Source: an uncultured Nitrospirales bacterium (GTDB taxonomy: Bacteria > Nitrospirota > Nitrospiria > Nitrospirales > UBA8639). Taken from it: DNA of 64,000 nt. The stretch lies in NCBI GenBank assembly GCA_951812745.1, contig OX638327.1:1291914-1355913 (forward strand), given 5' to 3'. The notes below the pieces were generated by a model. The model saw only the letters and a list, made by a program, of their open reading frames with translations, was not told the origin of the DNA and made no database searches. This document shows, piece by piece, positions 29,378 through 39,387 of the stretch (position 1 is its first letter; every line of letters starts with the position of its first letter). Both the position numbers and the translations under genes were made by a program.

Positions 29378-29468
29378 ACATTGTATTTTATAGTCTTATA
29401 TCAACTCAGTAAGCTTACTTTTTTCATGACCTGACTTCATGCCTTTCCCCAGCAGGAGGGAATTGAAG

Positions 29469-32027
29469 ATGAAACCCAAGATGTCGATGATGCTTGTTGT
29501 CGGCCTGTTCGTGCTGGCCGGCGTGTTTTCCGATGCGCGTCTTGCCCTGGCGCAGACGCAGGAAGCTTGTCCGCTCCCTTCCGGCGTGACTCTTCCTGAC
29601 CCACCGAGTACAACGGCGCAACAGGTGGAAGACGGCAGCGCCAGCCTGATGGACTTCGCGCTCGCCGCCAGCGATCAATTCAAGGGCTTGGGAACACTAT
29701 CTCTGGAACAAGGCCTGTACTTTGGATGTCTCATCAGGCAGGAGGGGGGGCCTTGGCGTTCCGGTTCCACCTACCTCGTACAACTGTCGCTAGACGGCAG
29801 AGACGGCAGGGTGTTCGTCCACACGAAGGACATGGCCTTGGCTGGCAGGAAGCTCAATCCCTTGATCTATGCAGCGATCCTTGACGCATTGGAAATCAAC
29901 CCGGCCGACCTGGCCAACCCTGCTACCGCCTTCCCCGCCTTGACTACCGCCATAGCCGGGAACGGTGGAGCGTTCAATGTTCCCAATGTCCCGGGCGCCT
30001 CCGGCTATGCCACTGCATTTTTGTCACCGACTACAGGGGTCCCGTTCGTCTTGCTCGCCGGATTCGATCTCACCTCCTCCCCTCACTTGGCTCAAGAAAA
30101 AATCGATTACGGCGACCCGGCCATTACTGCCAGTGAAGTGGTGGACCGCAGAACCTTGAAAGCCTTCGTCGAGGAAGCGGGGAATTATGTCCTTGATCTC
30201 CAGAGGAGCGGAGATCTGGCCGCTGCCTCGAAGATCCGGGTCGCCTTGCGAGATCCGAACGGGCCCTGGAGACACGATAACGTGTATCTCTACACGCTGG
30301 ACCTTACCAGCAACATCATCCTGTTTCACGGAGCGAATCCGGACAAATACGAGCTGCGACCTCTGGAACCGACTGTCGAAGTCCGCTTTGCCGATGGTAC
30401 CGAAGGGTTCATTCTTCCGCGGGTCCTCGACGCGGCGATAGACAACCCGAAGGAAGGCGGCTTCGTGGAGTATTTCTTCGACGATCCCACCGACCCCAAC
30501 GACAGCAACGACACCCCCAAGGTAGGCTACGCCCGCCAGTTCACCGGTGGATACATGAGGCCGGACGGAAGCGTAATTCCAGTCAACTTCATCGTCGGGT
30601 CGGGCTTTTATCAGAGTTCAGCCAACGTGGTTGCCGCGCGCCAAAACACGGTGATCAAGTCCGTGCTGCCGCAGGTCATGCGGGCCATGACCGCCAGCAC
30701 GGTGGATGCCGTCTCGGGCCGCATCCAGCAGGCCACTTCCGGTGCCCCGCCGGCCAAAGGGTTCAGCCTGGGCGGCGCCTCCACGCTTGCCGATGCCCTG
30801 CTGGCGAACGGGCGGGCCCTTGGGAACGGCTCGTTCGACCTCAGCCGGCTGCTCGCGGGCTCGTCCTTCACCCTGCCGCTCAACGCCGCGGGCACCGGGG
30901 GCAGCGGCCCGTTCGGGAACATGACGCTCTGGGGAAGCGGGGACTACCGCAACTTCTCCGGCGGCAACTCGCAGACCATGACCTACGACGGCGACGTGGT
31001 AAGCGCCAATCTCGGGGTCGATACCAGGCTGAGCGCGGACCTGCTGGCGGGGGTGTCGGTGGCGTGGGCGCGAGGAGCCGTGGATTATACGGACTCCGCG
31101 CTGACCGGCGAATCCACGAACACCCTGACGAGCATCAATCCCTACGTGGGCTGGCAGGCCCCGAGTGGCATGAACCTGTGGGCCACGGCCGGCTACGGCT
31201 GGGGCGAGGTGGAGATCGATGATCCCGCGGCGGACACGCAAGCGAGCGACCTGTCGCAGCAGATGGTCGCGGTAGGCGTGAACGGGCCGCTGGTGTCCAG
31301 CGATCAGCTCATTGAAGGCGGCACCACGAGCCTGCGGCTGAAAGGCGAAACCGCGTTCACGTGGGCCGATATCGATGGGGCCGGGACGATCGAAGCCGTG
31401 AACTTGAATGCCAGCCGGCAGCGGCTGATGTTCGAAGGACTCCACGTCCAGACACTCGCCTCGGGGGCCACCCTCACCCCCTCGGTCGAAATGGGCATGC
31501 GGTATGACGGCGGGGACGGCGACACCGGCCACAGCCTCGAGATCGGGGGCGGCCTGCGGTATGCCGATCCGGCCACGGGGCTGACCGTCGAAGGCCGGGC
31601 CCGCACCGTGCCGGTGCATAGCGGCGATTACCGGGAGTGGGGCGTGAGCGGCTTGGTGCGGCTCGACCCGGGCGCGGCAGGTATGGGGCTCGCGCTCACC
31701 GTGCAGCCGGCCTGGGGCCAGACGGCCAGCGGGGTGCAACGGTTGTGGGAGACCGGCATGACCCAAGGCTCGGCCCCAGCCAACCAGGCGGCCGGGCGCG
31801 TGAACGCACGGATCGCCTACGGCATCGGCACCACGTGGGGTGGCCAGGGCGTGCTGACGCCCTACACCGACGTGTCGCTGTCCGGGGAAGGGTCCCGGCG
31901 CCTGAGCCTCGGCGGGCAATTCAACATCGGCTCAGCGGTGAGGATGAGCCTGGAAGGCGCTCACAGCCGGCCGGCGCGCGGCCTCACCAACCACGGCGTC
32001 ATGCTGCGTAGCGACCTGAACTGGTAG
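29469..32027 (+). CDS. Autotransporter with Cache-like passenger
   Basis: About 852 residues. A Sec signal peptide (MKPKMSMMLVVGLFVLAGVF, cleavage after ALA) is followed by two Cache-like sensor units. The first is around residues 30-110 (GPWRSGSTYLVQLSLDG), the second around 220-390 (GPWRHDNVYLYTLDL, then GGFVEYFFDDP, then FIVGSGFY), with the order of an sCache_2 domain. From about residue 480 a glycine- and aromatic-rich autotransporter beta-barrel runs to the C-terminal Trp (NMTLWGSGDYRNFSGG at its start, MLRSDLNW at its end). Cache units usually sense small ligands in the periplasm, so here one may be displayed outside the cell. AGGAGG lies 11 nt before the ATG. Ligand and role are unknown. 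Confidence 0.75.
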   Translation: MKPKMSMMLVVGLFVLAGVFSDARLALAQTQEACPLPSGVTLPDPPSTTAQQVEDGSASLMDFALAASDQFKGLGTLSLEQGLYFGCLIRQEGGPWRSGSTYLVQLSLDGRDGRVFVHTKDMALAGRKLNPLIYAAILDALEINPADLANPATAFPALTTAIAGNGGAFNVPNVPGASGYATAFLSPTTGVPFVLLAGFDLTSSPHLAQEKIDYGDPAITASEVVDRRTLKAFVEEAGNYVLDLQRSGDLAAASKIRVALRDPNGPWRHDNVYLYTLDLTSNIILFHGANPDKYELRPLEPTVEVRFADGTEGFILPRVLDAAIDNPKEGGFVEYFFDDPTDPNDSNDTPKVGYARQFTGGYMRPDGSVIPVNFIVGSGFYQSSANVVAARQNTVIKSVLPQVMRAMTASTVDAVSGRIQQATSGAPPAKGFSLGGASTLADALLANGRALGNGSFDLSRLLAGSSFTLPLNAAGTGGSGPFGNMTLWGSGDYRNFSGGNSQTMTYDGDVVSANLGVDTRLSADLLAGVSVAWARGAVDYTDSALTGESTNTLTSINPYVGWQAPSGMNLWATAGYGWGEVEIDDPAADTQASDLSQQMVAVGVNGPLVSSDQLIEGGTTSLRLKGETAFTWADIDGAGTIEAVNLNASRQRLMFEGLHVQTLASGATLTPSVEMGMRYDGGDGDTGHSLEIGGGLRYADPATGLTVEGRARTVPVHSGDYREWGVSGLVRLDPGAAGMGLALTVQPAWGQTASGVQRLWETGMTQGSAPANQAAGRVNARIAYGIGTTWGGQGVLTPYTDVSLSGEGSRRLSLGGQFNIGSAVRMSLEGAHSRPARGLTNHGVMLRSDLNW

Positions 32028-32880: not shown

Positions 32881-32910
32881 GTCGGGTTAGCCGAAGGCGT
32901 AACCCGACAG
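32878..32910. repeat. Palindromic repeat of the CGGGTTA type
   Basis: TAGGTCGGGTTAGCCGAAGG followed by CGTAACCCGACA forms the hairpin CGGGTTA / TAACCCG. It overlaps the xthA stop codon. Related copies sit at 21024, 33756 and 33814. Confidence 0.7.
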
Positions 32911-32991: not shown

Positions 32992-33624
32992 TCAGGTAGG
33001 ACCGTCGAGGTCGGCCGAGCAGGCGACGATGGCGCCGGCTTCCTGCATGGCCTCCAAAGCTCGATCGGCATCTCCGGGTTCCACGTCGATCCCGCGCACA
33101 CCGTCCCTGAGGACCACGACGCGAAAGCCCAACCGGCAGGCATCCAGCACCGTTTGTTTGACGCAATAGTCGGTGGCCAGCCCGATCACGTACACGGTCT
33201 GCGCCCCCAAATCTTCCAGGCGCTCGTCCAACGTCGTCCCGTCAAACCCGGAATAGGCTTCCTTTTTCGGGTTGGTGGCCCCGGATACGATCAACGTTCC
33301 TGGGGGCATTTTCAAATCCGGATGGAACTGGGACCCCAATGATCCTTGCACGCAATGCGGCGGCCACGGCCCACCCTGTTGCTGAAACGAACAGTGGTCC
33401 GGCGGATGCCAATCCCGTGTGGCGACAATGCCGTACCCTTGCGCGGCAAAAAGCCGAATCCAGTCATTAGCCACGGGGACGACGTGATCCCCTTCCGGAA
33501 CCGGCAAGGCGCCTCCCGGACAAAAGTCATTCTGCAGATGAACCAACAACAAGACGGTCTTCCGGTCCGGTGTCGGCACGGCGGCACGATTCTTTCGTTC
33601 GGTTTGTGCTTTCATAAGTTTCAT
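32992..33624 (-). CDS. Nicotinamidase-like isochorismatase-family protein with altered active site
   Basis: 210 residues, overall a PncA-type amidohydrolase. Retained are the metal-site residues in TRDWHPPDH (Asp71, His73, His77) and WPPH (His90), and the nucleophile region GLATDYCVKQTVLDA with Cys154. Two of the three catalytic residues are changed. The Asp of the family motif VDVQNDF/VDLQNDF is His29 (LLLVHLQNDF), and the Lys of the SKAT.P.KEAYSGF segment is Gly115 (SGATNPKKEAYSGF). Typical nicotinamidases deamidate nicotinamide to nicotinate with an Asp-Lys-Cys triad, so this protein may be inactive or have another substrate. The rest is well conserved, arguing against simple decay. Confidence 0.85.
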   Translation of the reverse strand: MKLMKAQTERKNRAAVPTPDRKTVLLLVHLQNDFCPGGALPVPEGDHVVPVANDWIRLFAAQGYGIVATRDWHPPDHCSFQQQGGPWPPHCVQGSLGSQFHPDLKMPPGTLIVSGATNPKKEAYSGFDGTTLDERLEDLGAQTVYVIGLATDYCVKQTVLDACRLGFRVVVLRDGVRGIDVEPGDADRALEAMQEAGAIVACSADLDGPT

Positions 33625-33713: not shown

Positions 33714-33930
33714 CCTCACCCCAGCCCTCTCCCTCCAAGGGAGAGGGAGTTTTGCGTAGGTCGGATTAGCGTAGCGTAATCCGACATGGGGCCTCGATCG
33801 TTGCGCAGTTGCTTGTCGGGTTACGCCTTCGACTAACCCGACCTACGGTCTTGATGCAATTCTCCCTCCTCACCCCGGCCCCCGGATCAAGTCCGGGGCA
33901 GGCTCTCTCCCTCGTTGGGGAGAGGGGGTA
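33714..33930. repeat. Cluster of dispersed palindromic repeats between pncA-like gene and argB
   Basis: The gap carries four elements. CCCTCTCCCTCCAAGGGAGAGGG is at about 33725. A CGGATTA / TAATCCG palindrome is at 33756-33786. An inverted CGGGTTA / TAACCCG copy is at 33814-33846. A second CTCTCCCTCGTTGGGGAGAGG palindrome is at about 33903-33929, with GGCCCCCGGATCAAGTCCGG before it. The first kind recurs at 47806 and 51178. No gene is seen. The last palindrome directly abuts the argB stop and could serve as its terminator, though no T-run follows. Confidence 0.65.
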
Positions 33931-33933
33931 GAT

Positions 33934-34827
33934 TTACGCCACGATCTCCGTGCCGATTCCCTTGTCCGTGAAAATCTCCAGTAGAATGGCATGCTCGATC
34001 CGGCCGTCAATGATGTGGGCCTTGTGCACGCCGGCTTCGATGCCGGTTAAACACGCCCGCACTTTGGGCAGCATGCCTTCACTGATCGTGCCTTTCTTCA
34101 CCATGCGTTCGACGTCTTTTCTGGAGACCGTGGGCAGGTGCCGGTTGTTGGCGCCCCGAATGCCCCGCACGTCGCTGAGCATCAACAGCTTTTCCGCTTT
34201 CAACGCGCCGGCCACGGCACCGGCCACGAGGTCCGCGTTGATGTTATGCGGTTTCCCTTTGCGATCGACGCCGATAGGCGCGATAACCGGAATCAGATTC
34301 TCCTGCTGCAATTTCGTGATGATCTGCGGTTCGATGTGATCGACCTCTCCCACAAAGCCGTACTCTTCCTCCGTCTGACCGTGGGGCTCGTGGCTCAATC
34401 CCTGCGCCCAGGCTTTCGCGGAAAACGGTTTGCAGACAATGAACTGCGCGTCTTTTCCGGTGATCCCGACGGCTTTCCCCCCATGCTGATTGAGCAGCGT
34501 CACGATTTCCTTGTTGATCTTTCCGCCCAGGACCATTTCGACCACGTCCATGGTGGCTTGATCCGTGACCCGAACACCTCGTTTGAAGGTCGGCTTCATG
34601 CCCAACCGGGAAAGCATTTGATCGATTTGCGGTCCGCCTCCATGCACGATCACCGGATTGAGCCCGACGTATTTCATCAGAACCACGTCTTCGGCAAAGC
34701 CGTCTTTCAATCCATCCTGCACCATGGCCTTCCCGCCGTATTTGATGACGATGGTCTTCCCCGCAAACGTCCGTATGTACGGTAATGCTTCGACGAGGAC
34801 GTCGGCTTTCTTGATCAGTCTGTTCAT
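33934..34827 (-). CDS. argB: Acetylglutamate kinase
   Basis: The 297-residue kinase phosphorylates N-acetyl-L-glutamate in arginine synthesis. Diagnostic parts are TIVIKYGGKAM (residues 25-35), VIVHGGGPQIDQML, MVLGGKINKEIV, NINADLVAGAVAGAL and GTISEGMLPKV. It is the last gene of the trmFO-xerC-hslV-hslU-argB run, 20 nt after hslU. No other arg gene lies nearby. Confidence 0.96.
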   Translation of the reverse strand: MNRLIKKADVLVEALPYIRTFAGKTIVIKYGGKAMVQDGLKDGFAEDVVLMKYVGLNPVIVHGGGPQIDQMLSRLGMKPTFKRGVRVTDQATMDVVEMVLGGKINKEIVTLLNQHGGKAVGITGKDAQFIVCKPFSAKAWAQGLSHEPHGQTEEEYGFVGEVDHIEPQIITKLQQENLIPVIAPIGVDRKGKPHNINADLVAGAVAGALKAEKLLMLSDVRGIRGANNRHLPTVSRKDVERMVKKGTISEGMLPKVRACLTGIEAGVHKAHIIDGRIEHAILLEIFTDKGIGTEIVA

Positions 34828-34847: not shown

Positions 34848-36224
34848 CTACAGAATGTACCGGCTCAGATCCTGGTCCTTGACGATCTCCTTTAAATGCT
34901 CGTTCACGTAGGGCGCGTCGATCACCACTTTTTTCTCTTGCAGTTCCTGCGCCTCAAAGGAGACTTCCTCGAGCAACCGCTCCACAATCGTAAAGAGCCG
35001 GCGCGCGCCGATGTTTTCCGTTCGATCGTTGACCTCCACGGCAATGGCCGCAATGGCTTCAATGCCTTCCCGGGTAAAGTCGAGCGTAATGCCTTCGGTT
35101 TCCATCAAGGCCTGATATTGTTTCACCAGGGCGTTTCGGGGTTCCGTCAGGATGCGCACCAAGTCACCCTTGGTCAAGGGCTCCAACTCGACGCGAATGG
35201 GGAACCGGCCTTGCAGCTCGGGAATCATATCGGCCGGCTTCGCCACGTGAAACGCCCCGGCGGCGATAAACAAAATATGGTCGGTCTTCACCGGGCCGTA
35301 CTTGGTATTGATAGTCGATCCTTCGACAATCGGCAGCAAATCCCGTTGCACCCCTTCCCGTGACACGTCGGGCCCCATGTTCTTTTCCCGACCGGCAATT
35401 TTGTCGATTTCATCCAAGAAGACGATGCCGGATTGCTCGACCCGTTCGACGGCGTCGCGCGTCACCTCGTCCATGTCAATCAGTTTTTGCGCTTCTTCCT
35501 GCGCCAGATACTTCAGGGCATCGGGAATCTTCATGACCCGGTCTTTCTTCTTCCCGGGCATCAACCCGCCCAGCATGTCGCGCAGGTGGTTTTCGAGGTC
35601 TTCCATGCCTCCGACGTTGGAGATAATCCCGACCGGCAGGCCGCGTTCCTTGATTTCGATTTCCACCGTCCGGTTGTCGAGCCGGCCTTCCCGCAATTGC
35701 TTGCGGAGCTTTTGTCGCGTGTTGTCACCCGACGCCGATTGCCCCGGCTCATCCTCCTGTCCCCCCCGGGACGGACTCGGCGGAAGCAACAGATCGAGCA
35801 CTCGATCCTCGGCCATGTCTTCGGCCTTCCGTTCGACTCGCTTCAGCGACGAACTCTTCACCAGGTTGACCGACTGTTCGGTGAGGTCGCGGATGATCGA
35901 TTCCACGTCGCGCCCGACGTACCCGACTTCGGTGAATTTCGACGCCTCGACTTTAATGAACGGGGCGTCGGCCAGTTTCGCCAGTCGCCTGGAGATTTCC
36001 GTTTTACCCACGCCCGTGGGCCCGATCATGACGATATTCTTCGGGAAAATTTCATCGCGCAATTCCGGGCTGAGCTGCTGGCGACGCCATCGATTCCGCA
36101 ACGCGATGGCCACCATCCGTTTGGCGTCACGCTGTCCGATCACGTACCGGTCGAGCACTTCGACGATTTCCCGAGGCGACAAGCTGTCGAGTTTCTGCGT
36201 TTCGGCCGGTGAGGCGTGATTCAT
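34848..36224 (-). CDS. hslU: ATP-dependent protease ATPase subunit HslU
   Basis: A 458-residue AAA+ unfoldase. Walker A is [15 protein letters not shown], Walker B is [13 protein letters not shown], pore loop region is [12 protein letters not shown], and the I-domain (about 110-240) carries a hydrophilic insert. The C terminus ends in LSRYIL, the tail that docks into HslV. It unfolds substrates for the HslV peptidase. It overlaps hslV by 4 nt (ATGA), consistent with translational coupling. Confidence 0.97.
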
Positions 36225-36763
36225 GAGGGTGCCTTCAGTTCTTCAATCACGATTTCATGATTCGTGTAGATATCGATGCCGGCGGCGATGCGCATGGCCT
36301 TATCGACGATTTCCGCCGAGGCCAAGGAGGAATTTTCCATCAGCGCTCGAGCCGCAGCCAACGCATACGGCCCGCCCGACCCGATGGCGAGAATCCCGTC
36401 TTCCGGTTCCACGACGTCCCCCGTGCCGGAAATGAGAAAGGATCGATCCGGATCCGCGACGGCCAACAGCGCTTCGAGCCGACGCAGCACGCGGTCCGTC
36501 CGCCAGTCTTTCGCCAACTCGACCGCGGCCCTGGTCAGGTTGCCCCGGTATTCTTCCAATTTCTCCTCGAATTTTTCAAATAGGGTAAACGCGTCCGCCG
36601 TGGCTCCGGCAAAGCCCGCGATCACCTGATCGTGATGGAGACGGCGGACTTTGCGGGCGTTGGCCTTCATCACCGTGGTCCCGACCGTCACCTGGCCGTC
36701 GGAGCCCATGGCCACCGTTCCATCCCGGCGCACGGACAGAATCGTGGTGGAGCGAATCTTCAT
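36221..36763 (-). CDS. hslV: ATP-dependent protease peptidase subunit HslV
   Basis: The 180-residue N-terminal-nucleophile protease contains [20 protein letters not shown], with the Thr pair that forms the active site in the mature enzyme. Here five residues (MKIRS) precede the Thr pair, so processing must remove more than the initiator Met; no later start is available. [20 protein letters not shown] follows as expected. It works with HslU in the cytoplasm and overlaps both neighbours by 4 nt. Confidence 0.96.
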
Positions 36764-37749
36764 GACGGTTTCCTCGGGGTTGCGGGCTTGGGCGCCCTGG
36801 CGTCTCCGGATCGCGGATGGGCCTGGTCGTAGACTTCCATCAACCGATCCGTGGCCAGGTGCGTGTATTTCTGCGTGGTGGCCAAGGACGCGTGCCCGAG
36901 CATTTCCTGGATGACCCGAAGGTCGGCCCCCTCATCCAATAAATGCGTGGCATAGGAATGCCGAAAGGTATGCGGGGTCACGGTCCCCACCTGCAAGCGG
37001 TCGGCGTAACGCCGGACGATTCGCTCCACGCTCCGTACCGACAAGCGGCCGCCGCGATTGTTGCGAAACACCGGACCGTCCGCGGGTTTCACCGCGAGGG
37101 TCGAGGCCGAAGCCTCATCCTTGGCCGCTGCCCGGCTCGCACGCACCGGTGTCACCGCCAGGTAGTCTTGGATCGCCTCGACCGCTACGTGGCCGATCGG
37201 CACGAGGCGCTCTTTTTTGCCCTTGCCTCTCAACCGCACCATACCTTCATCAAGGCTGAGATCACTCCAATTCACCCCCACCAGTTCGCTCACCCGCGCA
37301 CCCGTGGAATAGAGGGTTTCCAAAATAGCCTGATCCCGTGCGGTGTAAGTCCCCTCATCGGAATCAGGAGACTCGATCACCCGTTCCGCCTCGTCTTTCG
37401 TGAGGACACGGGGCAAACGTTGCCCCAGCCGTGGGGTCCGAACGTGTGCGACGGGATTGCTCGGCACCTGCCCGCGGCGGTGCAAAAATTTGAAGAGGCT
37501 GCGCAGCGTCGCGAGTTTCCGCGCCTGCGACGACTTTTTATCCCTCCGCCCGGCCAACCACACCAGAAACCGGCGAACGAGGGCCGCGTCGATCCCGGTC
37601 GGATCCGGCACCGCGTCCGTGACGGTTTTGAGAAAAGCCACGAATTGTCGCAGGTCCGATTGATAACTGCGAATCGTTTCCCGGGACACTCCACGCTCTA
37701 CGTCCAGATACGTCAGGAAAGTGCGTATTGCCGTTTCCACGTTTGCCAC
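36760..37749 (-). CDS. xerC: Tyrosine recombinase XerC
   Basis: A 329-residue chromosome dimer-resolution recombinase with an N-terminal SAM-like DNA-binding domain (about 1-95) and a catalytic domain. The active residues are visible: Arg in [15 protein letters not shown], His-x-x-Arg in [14 protein letters not shown], His in [11 protein letters not shown], and Tyr in QKYTHL. An insert of about 25 residues rich in Ala and Ser follows the catalytic Lys region. Its start overlaps the end of trmFO by 37 nt. The trmFO-xerC-hslVU order is also known from Bacillus (codY operon), supporting XerC rather than an integrase. Confidence 0.93.
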
Positions 37750-39032
37750 TCTTCAATCGCCCGTTGGCGGATCATTCGGCGCTTGAGTTCTTTGTCCCGT
37801 ACTCTTTCGGAAAGGGGGGGGAACAGGCCGAAGTTGGTATTCATGGGCTGAAAATGCCGGGCGTCGCTTGTCGTAATATAATTCACCAATGCCCCATGTG
37901 CCGTGGTCAAAGGAGGCGTCACCAACGGCAGATTGGCCAGGGCTCGACCGGCGTTGATCCCCGCCAAGCCGCCGGTCGCGGCGGATTCGACGTAACCTTC
38001 CACGCCCACGAGACAGCCCGCCAACCACGTGGTCTCGTGCAACTTCAGTTGCAACGTCTTTCGCAACAAGGCCGGTGAGTTCACAAAGGTGTTCCGATGC
38101 ACGCTGCCATAGCGGAGAAACTCCGCGCGTTCGAGACCCGGAATCATCCGAAACACGCGTTTTTGCTCCGGATAGGTCAGCTTGGTTTGAAACCCCACCA
38201 TGTTATAACACGAACCATAGCGATTTTCCGCACGTAACTGGAGCACCGCGTGCGGTTGGACGCCGGTGCGCGGATCAACCAACCCCACGGGTTTCATGGG
38301 ACCAAAGGTCAGCGTCTGCTTACCGCGTTCCGCCATGGCCTCGATGGGGAGGCACCCTTCAAAGTAGGGAACCTTTTCAAAATCCTTTGCCTGTACCTTG
38401 TCCGCCGCCACGAGTGCTTCAAAAAAGGTCGAATACGTTTCTTCGTCCATCGGACAATTCAGATAATCCGCGCCGCCCTTGTCATAGCGTGACGCCCGGA
38501 ACACTGTGTCCATGTCAATGGATTCGGCATCGATGATCGGCGAAATCGCATCGAAAAACGCCAGGTTCGTCTTGTGAGTCAGCGCGGTCAAGGCCTGCGC
38601 CAGGCTCTCGGACGTCAAGGGACCCGTGGCCACGATGCACAGGGCGTCCATGGGAATCTCTTGAATCTCTTCTCGAATGATCCGGATATTCTGGTGGGAT
38701 TCCAGGGTCCGGGTGATTTCGCGCGCGAAGATCTCGCGATCCACCGCCAGTGCCGCCCCGGCGGGCACGCGGGCTGAGTCAGCCGCCCGCAGGACCAGCG
38801 AATTCAGCAGCCGCATCTCTTCCTTCAAAATACCCGGCGCGCTGATGGGGTCCGCGGATCCCAACGAATTCGAGCACACGATTTCCGCCAACTGATCCGT
38901 CTTGTGTGCCGCGGTCCCTTGCTTGGGTCGCATCTCGTACAGCGTGACCCGCGCTCCGCGCTCCGCCGCCTGCCACGCCGCTTCCGACCCCGCCAGTCCG
39001 CCCCCTATGACCACCACGTCATCGCGCATCAT
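37713..39032 (-). CDS. trmFO: Methylenetetrahydrofolate-tRNA-(uracil-5-)-methyltransferase
   Basis: A flavoprotein of about 439 residues that makes ribothymidine-54 in tRNA with methylene-THF as carbon donor. It shows VVVIGGGLAGSEAAWQAAER (FAD loop), LYEMRP, EIVCSNSLG, GPLTSESLAQAL and TGGLAGINAGRALA. The ATG at 39032 (followed by another at 39029) fits the family start; a longer reading to 39080 adds unrelated residues. It heads the five-gene minus-strand operon. Confidence 0.95.
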   Translation of the reverse strand: MMRDDVVVIGGGLAGSEAAWQAAERGARVTLYEMRPKQGTAAHKTDQLAEIVCSNSLGSADPISAPGILKEEMRLLNSLVLRAADSARVPAGAALAVDREIFAREITRTLESHQNIRIIREEIQEIPMDALCIVATGPLTSESLAQALTALTHKTNLAFFDAISPIIDAESIDMDTVFRASRYDKGGADYLNCPMDEETYSTFFEALVAADKVQAKDFEKVPYFEGCLPIEAMAERGKQTLTFGPMKPVGLVDPRTGVQPHAVLQLRAENRYGSCYNMVGFQTKLTYPEQKRVFRMIPGLERAEFLRYGSVHRNTFVNSPALLRKTLQLKLHETTWLAGCLVGVEGYVESAATGGLAGINAGRALANLPLVTPPLTTAHGALVNYITTSDARHFQPMNTNFGLFPPLSERVRDKELKRRMIRQRAIEEWQTWKRQYALS

Positions 39033-39387
39033 GCGCTGACTCTCTCTTGCTGCTCGTGAAAAATCGAAGACGATTGACACGTTTGGAACGTGACGGTCCG
39101 CAATGAATTAATCACTTTTTTCACAGTAAAAATGGCAGGGATTCCATTCTAGGAACCTAGTAAAAACAGTGCAAGCGTCGAGAGCACAGTCTACTGCCTA
39201 CGCTCAGATGAACGGTCATTCCCGTATGTGTTCACTCATTTGTTGACAAATTTCACTCCCTCCTTCCGTCATTCCCGACAGTTTTCATCGGAAATCCAGG
39301 TTTATTTTTCTTTCAGGAGAAGGGCTCGTGCATACTCAGTCGCTCTTGAGCATGGCATTCTCTTCTATCGAAGTAAGGTGCGCCGTT
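39033..39387. repeat. Intergenic region with MITE relic
   Basis: GTCATTCCCGTATGTGTTCA (39217-39236) followed by CTCATTTGTTGACAA matches the left MITE terminus (TCATCCCTGTATGTGTTCAG then TCATTCGTTGACAA at 50914). Nothing of the inside survives. A small palindrome CTAGGAACCTAG lies near 39149. No gene is seen, and I looked specifically for a HicA partner of the HicB gene to the right without finding one. Confidence 0.5.

Follow-up and report, generated by a model that had tools for sequence, protein, structure and literature searches.

The window analysed here, a 64,000-nucleotide stretch of a Nitrospirales genome, encodes a protein that is, judged by its sequence, an orthologue of the nicotinamidase PncA without the canonical catalytic triad. 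On balance, we lean towards the reading that this protein is an active nicotinamidase that would work with a Cys-His centre and feed PncB. More tentatively, and with less confidence, we propose that the Cys-Asp-Lys triad may have been replaced repeatedly among nicotinamidases, by Cys-His-Gln in Methylococcaceae, Rhodocyclus, and a gammaproteobacterium, and by Cys-His-Gly in Nitrospirales and in the PncA-PncB fusion of a Nitrospinota bacterium; the single steps of this change are reported to be nearly or fully inactive, as far as tested, and its outcome would converge on a papain-type base.

Table 1. Positions in the window of the pncA-like gene, its active-site codons, and its conserved neighbours (Ph, P. 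horikoshii PncA).
Feature	Position	Strand	Evidence
PncA homologue, H29/G115/C154 type	32992..33624	minus	210-aa ORF, translation, family profile, alignment, fold match
His29, codon CAT, replaces catalytic Asp (Ph Asp10)	33538..33540	minus	alignment; coordinates counted from ORF start
Asp71, metal ligand position (Ph Asp52)	33412..33414	minus	alignment; invariant in 43 aligned copies
His73, metal ligand position (Ph His54)	33406..33408	minus	alignment; invariant in 43 aligned copies
His90, metal ligand position (Ph His71)	33355..33357	minus	alignment; invariant in 43 aligned copies
Gly115, codon GGG, replaces catalytic Lys (Ph Lys94)	33280..33282	minus	alignment
Ala150, GLA cis-peptide/oxyanion-hole segment	33175..33177	minus	alignment; role from PMC3025910 (excerpt)
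Cys154, codon TGC, nucleophile position (Ph Cys133)	33163..33165	minus	alignment
argB, upstream neighbour, conserved in family	33934..34827	minus	NCBIfam TIGR00761; synteny
hslU, hslV, xerC-type recombinase, trmFO; conserved row ahead of argB-pncA	34848..39080	minus	NCBIfam; synteny

The PncA-like gene, its active site, and its locus

The reading frame has no internal stops, and its product belongs to the Pfam class Isochorismatase (PF00857, 127.5 bits). It scores 185.9 bits against the equivalog model for PncA in NCBIfam (NF008623; cut-off 174, passed), and lies far under the NCBIfam cut-offs for BiuH and RutB, which, like YcaC, are members of the same superfamily with a Cys nucleophile; BiuH retains Asp-Lys-Cys (excerpt of PMC5806882). 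By sequence the closest solved relative was P. horikoshii PncA (1ilw, E 2.2e-59), which was also the top PDB match of the fold predicted by AlphaFold from an alignment of 43 sequences (mean pLDDT 92.5; rmsd 1.0, TM 0.96 by target length, E 1.1e-21, 51% identity). The nearest named relatives were Nitrospira or Nitrospirales MAGs, and viral contigs yielded one remote relative, 30% identical.

Residues were matched by local alignment with 1ilw, with residue roles taken from the excerpted text of PMC3025910. This alignment bore out the residue assignments of the first-pass annotation, which had reported His29 in place of the catalytic Asp and Gly115 in place of the catalytic Lys, with Cys154 and the metal ligands kept. 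Also retained were the GLA segment (148-150) and the aromatic pocket residues F34, W87, and Y124, alongside D71, H73, and H90. Compared with PncA nicotinamidase (1ilw/1im5; NF008623), the window protein thus shares the fold, the Cys nucleophile, the Asp-His-His metal site, the oxyanion segment, and the aromatic pocket, but has His and Gly where the canonical enzyme has its general-base Asp and triad Lys. The nucleophile and the metal site, loss of either of which would mark a pseudoenzyme, are both present here, and are lost only in relatives such as genus g4 and genome G019.

Within the window's family, wherever a locus extends as far as hslU-argB, the gene lay behind this pair, for Asp/Lys and His types alike, so that the His types are orthologues at one locus and not a separate paralogue. 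The recombinase in the row ahead of argB scored under the XerC equivalog cut-off and over that of the tyrosine-recombinase subfamily. The first-pass annotation had suggested looking for a second intact pncA, and no second PncA-like gene was found in the genome (one contig, 2.35 Mb) at E ≤ 0.1. The genome does encode PncB (G000:C1:409213-410553; NF006696, 621.5 bits versus 503), away from pncA. Gammaproteobacteria and Nitrospira carry members of the same protein family in PncA-PncB operons (L096 of N. defluvii, for example); however, L096 is of the Asp/Lys type, and in the window's family pncA follows argB rather than adjoining pncB.

Paired replacement at positions 29 and 115, and its origins

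Translation of 212 matching loci gave 176 distinct sequences, with the remote L117 and L118 left out; in five distinct rows the two sites were not both readable (L084, L111, L135, L136, and L194), leaving 171. Asp29/Lys115/Cys154 was present in 140 of these and His29 in 29, all 29 of which lacked Lys115, so the combination of His29 with Lys115 occurred in 0/171; these frequencies are not general, because sampling was by similarity to the window protein and partly from one class. The His29 rows comprised H/G/C (12), H/Q/C (8), H/G/W (4), and single cases of H/V/C, H/C/C, H/G/F, and H/V/W, with one further row, H/S, in which the Cys was unread. Two exceptions completed the set, L080 (Glu/Lys/Cys) and L196 from G312 (Asp/Thr/Cys), the latter a lone row in which Asp29 is kept and Thr occupies the Lys position. 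Eight one-base changes of an Asp codon alter the amino acid and just one of them would give His, yet His was found in all 29.

As the first-pass annotation had proposed checking, relatives do share the replaced residues. Where same-genus copies (76-93% identical) extend over both positions, His29 was present in 10/10, and position 115 was Gly in eight, Val in one, and Cys in one; the copy in G008, a contig-end fragment without sites 29 and 115, stands outside these ten. Two of the 14 same-genus genomes (G002 and G004) had no PncA match, in addition to the one fragment. G004 does have pncB; its missing pncA may reflect an assembly gap or nicotinate-only salvage.

A DNA-pattern survey, which misses copies of other spacing and from which L119, L122, and L124 were removed for want of a PncA match, found the H-type to be rare in the class of G059, the class of Methylococcus (2/369 genomes), and recorded it in 1/77 genomes in the phylum of G060, 1/121 in the family of G062, and 6/38 in the family of G059. 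Carriers of H/Q/C PncA included Methylococcus capsulatus str. Texas and Rhodocyclus purpureus DSM 168, named strains in which this type should be easy to test. Their PncA resembles the window protein in having His for Asp, no Lys, and an intact Cys and metal site, but has Gln rather than Gly at position 115, adjoins pncB, and has separate origins by the trees.

The H/Q/C gene abutted pncB in six Methylococcaceae genomes, Rhodocyclus, and SG8_30, and a Nitrospinota MAG (L050, 4950-6908) encoded a natural PncA-PncB fusion of 653 residues with an H/G/C PncA domain. Beyond the window's family, each of the nine distinct H-type copies found, which represent four lineages, abuts pncB or, in L050, is fused to it. 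A search for second copies covered four representative genomes (G059-G062) and G199; no second close PncA was found in the four, although G061 had two weak remote isochorismatase-fold matches, and G199 had one PncA match.

In an alignment of PncA and PncB from the operons (85 rows, columns 29, 115, and 154 removed), the H rows fell in four places. Clade tests used LG+G4, a simpler model that rejects true clades somewhat more often, and their p values are uncorrected for multiple testing. Among the operon copies (35 rows), placing all H sequences in one clade was rejected (p-AU 2.5e-5), and with it a single H-type family spread by transfer, as was placing all H/Q sequences in one (8.6e-6). Grouping Rhodocyclus with either Methylococcaceae (p 0.044) or L065 (p 0.021) was also disfavoured, while Methylococcaceae plus L065 (p 0.062), Methylococcaceae plus L050 (p 0.33), and L050 plus L065 (p 0.16) were left standing. 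Across the 31 loci of the window's family, the tree of neighbour genes rejected the H genomes as one clade, both when the truncated G022 copy was included (p 1.2e-9) and when it was left out (p 3.8e-7). Unlike the neighbour-gene trees, which do not join the H genomes, the PncA tree of this family united every H row (support 85/72; recovered in 99% of bootstrap trees), a conflict that could reflect convergence, gene transfer, or shared drift. As a cautious minimum, the His swap had at least three origins (Nitrospirales, Rhodocyclus, and the rest), and the best trees suggest five to seven. The recurrence of the paired swap in unrelated bacteria, adjoining the gene for the next enzyme of the pathway, suggests that evolution rebuilt the active site more than once rather than lost it.

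Pocket conservation, pncB, and selection

With the window-genome PncB as query, pncB was detected in 20 of 59 genomes, the window's own included, and Pfam gave the same number. Pocket comparison drew on family f1 (36 of the 59), from which G002, G004, G014, and G033 dropped out without a PncA, as did G008 (fragment) and G022 (truncated match), leaving 30 genomes. Seventeen pocket sites were identical to those of the window protein in 11/12 genomes with pncB versus 2/18 without (Fisher 1.5e-5; 2.3e-6 without G034), although the sites were picked after part of the variation had been seen, and inclusion of site 153, dropped because G017 (with pncB) has Val there, gives 10/12. A six-site core pocket gave 11/12 versus 4/18. 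In G034, the one pncB genome that differs, pncB lies next to another PncA of canonical type; in G015, among the 11, a second PncA and pncB are on separate contigs. Kinship-aware pairs were concordant in 3-4 cases and discordant in none (p 0.125-0.25), such that the link between pncB and pocket reflects few independent events.

The 11 pocket-identical pncB genomes consisted of eight H/G/C and three D/K/C genomes. All H-types with pncB were H/G/C and kept Cys and the whole pocket (8/8), compared with 3/11 H/G/C among those without, namely G009, G011, and G012, which are of this type though pncB was not detected. The seven Asp/Lys genomes without pncB kept Asp, Lys, and Cys, and had changes at Tyr124 (7/7) and Ala150 (5/7). 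Thus, where pncB is absent, the place at which the pocket changes varies from lineage to lineage. Among Asp/Lys/Cys copies, L024-L029 and L133 (g8, g9) and L023 (G034) had Tyr124 replaced by Arg, Lys, Ser, or Leu, and several had Ala150 replaced by Pro or Gly, or Cys91 by Gly or Ala.

Three lineages have an aromatic residue in place of the Cys nucleophile, all in genomes without detected pncB: Trp in g4 (L017, L018, and L020-L022; five genomes, probably one event), Phe in L014 (G019), and Tyr in L135 (the contig-end fragment in G008). The g4 and G019 genes remain at the argB locus. For same-genus copies, pairwise dN/dS was 0.06-0.16 where H/G/C occurs with pncB and 0.07-0.19 for H copies without pncB. 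It was 0.06-0.10 in g7, 0.09-0.15 in g4, whose copies lack the Cys, and 0.11-0.23 for the Asp/Lys copies of g9, with 0.02-0.13 for ArgB; several of the dS values exceeded 1 and are unreliable. That Cys-less g4 copies are under purifying selection supports a non-catalytic role in that branch.

Catalytic proposal, alternative readings, and other features of the window

In the active site that we propose, Cys154 and His29 would form the core of a rebuilt triad, and position 115, which is Gly in the window protein and Gln elsewhere, would have been vacated. Metal held by Asp71, His73, and His90 would seat the pyridine nitrogen of nicotinamide, His29 would serve as both base and acid towards Cys154, and the nicotinate produced would go to PncB, encoded elsewhere in the genome. 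Such a centre may also explain the pairing of the two replacements, since a retained Lys would have a histidine opposite it where the carboxylate used to be, an unfavourable arrangement, and so would be dropped. Charge balance would likewise explain the pairing, but not why the replacement of Asp is always His. The papain triad is Cys-His-Asn, to which a Cys-His-Gln centre in the Gln lineages would bear a formal likeness; the amide partner Gln115 is confined to the H/Q/C lineages, and the window protein has Gly there. The unchanged pocket points to the same substrate being handled by changed catalytic machinery.

In PncA, Asp has been proposed to activate the Cys thiol, with Lys in a stabilizing part, and the Asp8Glu and Lys96Gln variants of M. 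tuberculosis PncA showed very little activity or none and were less stable (excerpt of PMC3025910). OiNIC Lys104Ala retained 1.45% activity, which its authors blame on poor refolding (excerpt of PMC3581539). In BiuH, replacement of Asp36 by Ala, Asn, Gln, or Glu failed in every case, and at Lys142 only Arg was tolerated (excerpt of PMC5806882). His does not appear among the Asp variants listed in the excerpted portions of the M. tuberculosis PncA and BiuH studies. These variant data weigh against an active enzyme, as do the H/G/C copies of G009, G011, and G012 in genomes where pncB was not detected, the presence of pncB but no PncA match in G004, and the purifying selection on the Cys-less g4 copies. 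Cys-Asp-Lys is described as totally conserved in nicotinamidases, with the roles of Asp, Lys, and the metal-bound water under debate (excerpt of PMC5531466). Among the matches listed from open-licence papers, titles and the starts of abstracts contained no report of a His/Gly or His/Gln nicotinamidase. If active, the window protein would be a natural enzyme without Asp and Lys, with a bearing on those debated roles, and would mean that the triad is replaceable by paired substitution; if inactive, it would warn that nicotinamide salvage has been wrongly assigned to some genomes.

The first-pass annotation had suggested a changed reaction or a binding role, of which the second fared better. An unlikely though substantial alternative to the active nicotinamidase is a pseudoenzyme that binds nicotinamide, or partners of the NAD cycle, as a sensor, buffer, or scaffold, with Cys154 a leftover that has since disappeared from some relatives. 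The near or full inactivity of the single Asp or Lys variants in the published excerpts agrees with this, as do the aromatic replacements of Cys in g4, G019, and G008 of the same family, the persistence of the g4 and G019 genes at the argB locus, and the low dN/dS of the Cys-less g4 copies. A binding role is therefore plausible in pncB-less relatives such as g4 and G019, and possible for the window protein. However, the H-type copies in family genomes with pncB retain Cys and the entire pocket without exception, and wherever the pair has changed, Asp gave way to His, never to Asn, Ala, or Gly. Moreover, in other lineages the H-type sits on pncB, and in the four genomes searched, which showed no second close PncA, a dead enzyme would break nicotinamide use.

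A changed reaction, in which the same fold would act on another amide or ester or carry out some other Cys-His reaction, appears improbable. Isochorismatase-fold relatives do act on several amides, and two catalytic positions differ here; yet the 17 pocket sites match those of the three canonical Asp/Lys siblings in pncB-bearing genomes, and in four other lineages the same swap is found in the context of the nicotinate-using pncB, in operons or the fusion. Slow decay, whereby de novo synthesis (nadC) makes salvage dispensable and the gene is gradually being lost, is less probable still. QRPTase matches in 56/59 genomes, the window's own included (55 if G034, whose sole match is its pncB, is discounted), and the missing or fragmentary same-genus copies would fit such a course, but it is largely refuted by the low dN/dS, unbroken frame, and unchanged pocket of the same-genus copies with pncB, and by the sharing of H/Q/C among six Methylococcaceae genomes, so that the earlier view of a selective loss rather than decay held up. 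Sequencing or assembly error at both codons, which the first-pass annotation had itself raised, is effectively ruled out by His29 in all ten same-genus copies and, without Lys115, in 29 distinct sequences from many assemblies.

Two further features of the window lie near the gene. A REP-like near-palindrome (GTCGGGTTA..GCGTAACCCGAC) flanks pncA in inverted orientation (32881-32908 and 33815-33842); at ≤2 mismatches these are its only two sites in the window (4 strand matches, 0.00 expected), and genome-wide there are 76 strand matches, 30 of them exact. Additionally, an 862-residue protein encoded on the plus strand (29439-32027) between polA and xth had an autotransporter beta-domain at residues 497-693 (PF03797) and matched no NCBIfam family. 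It may be an insertion, as the polA and xth matches are too close together in same-genus L003 and L006-L010 to accommodate it.
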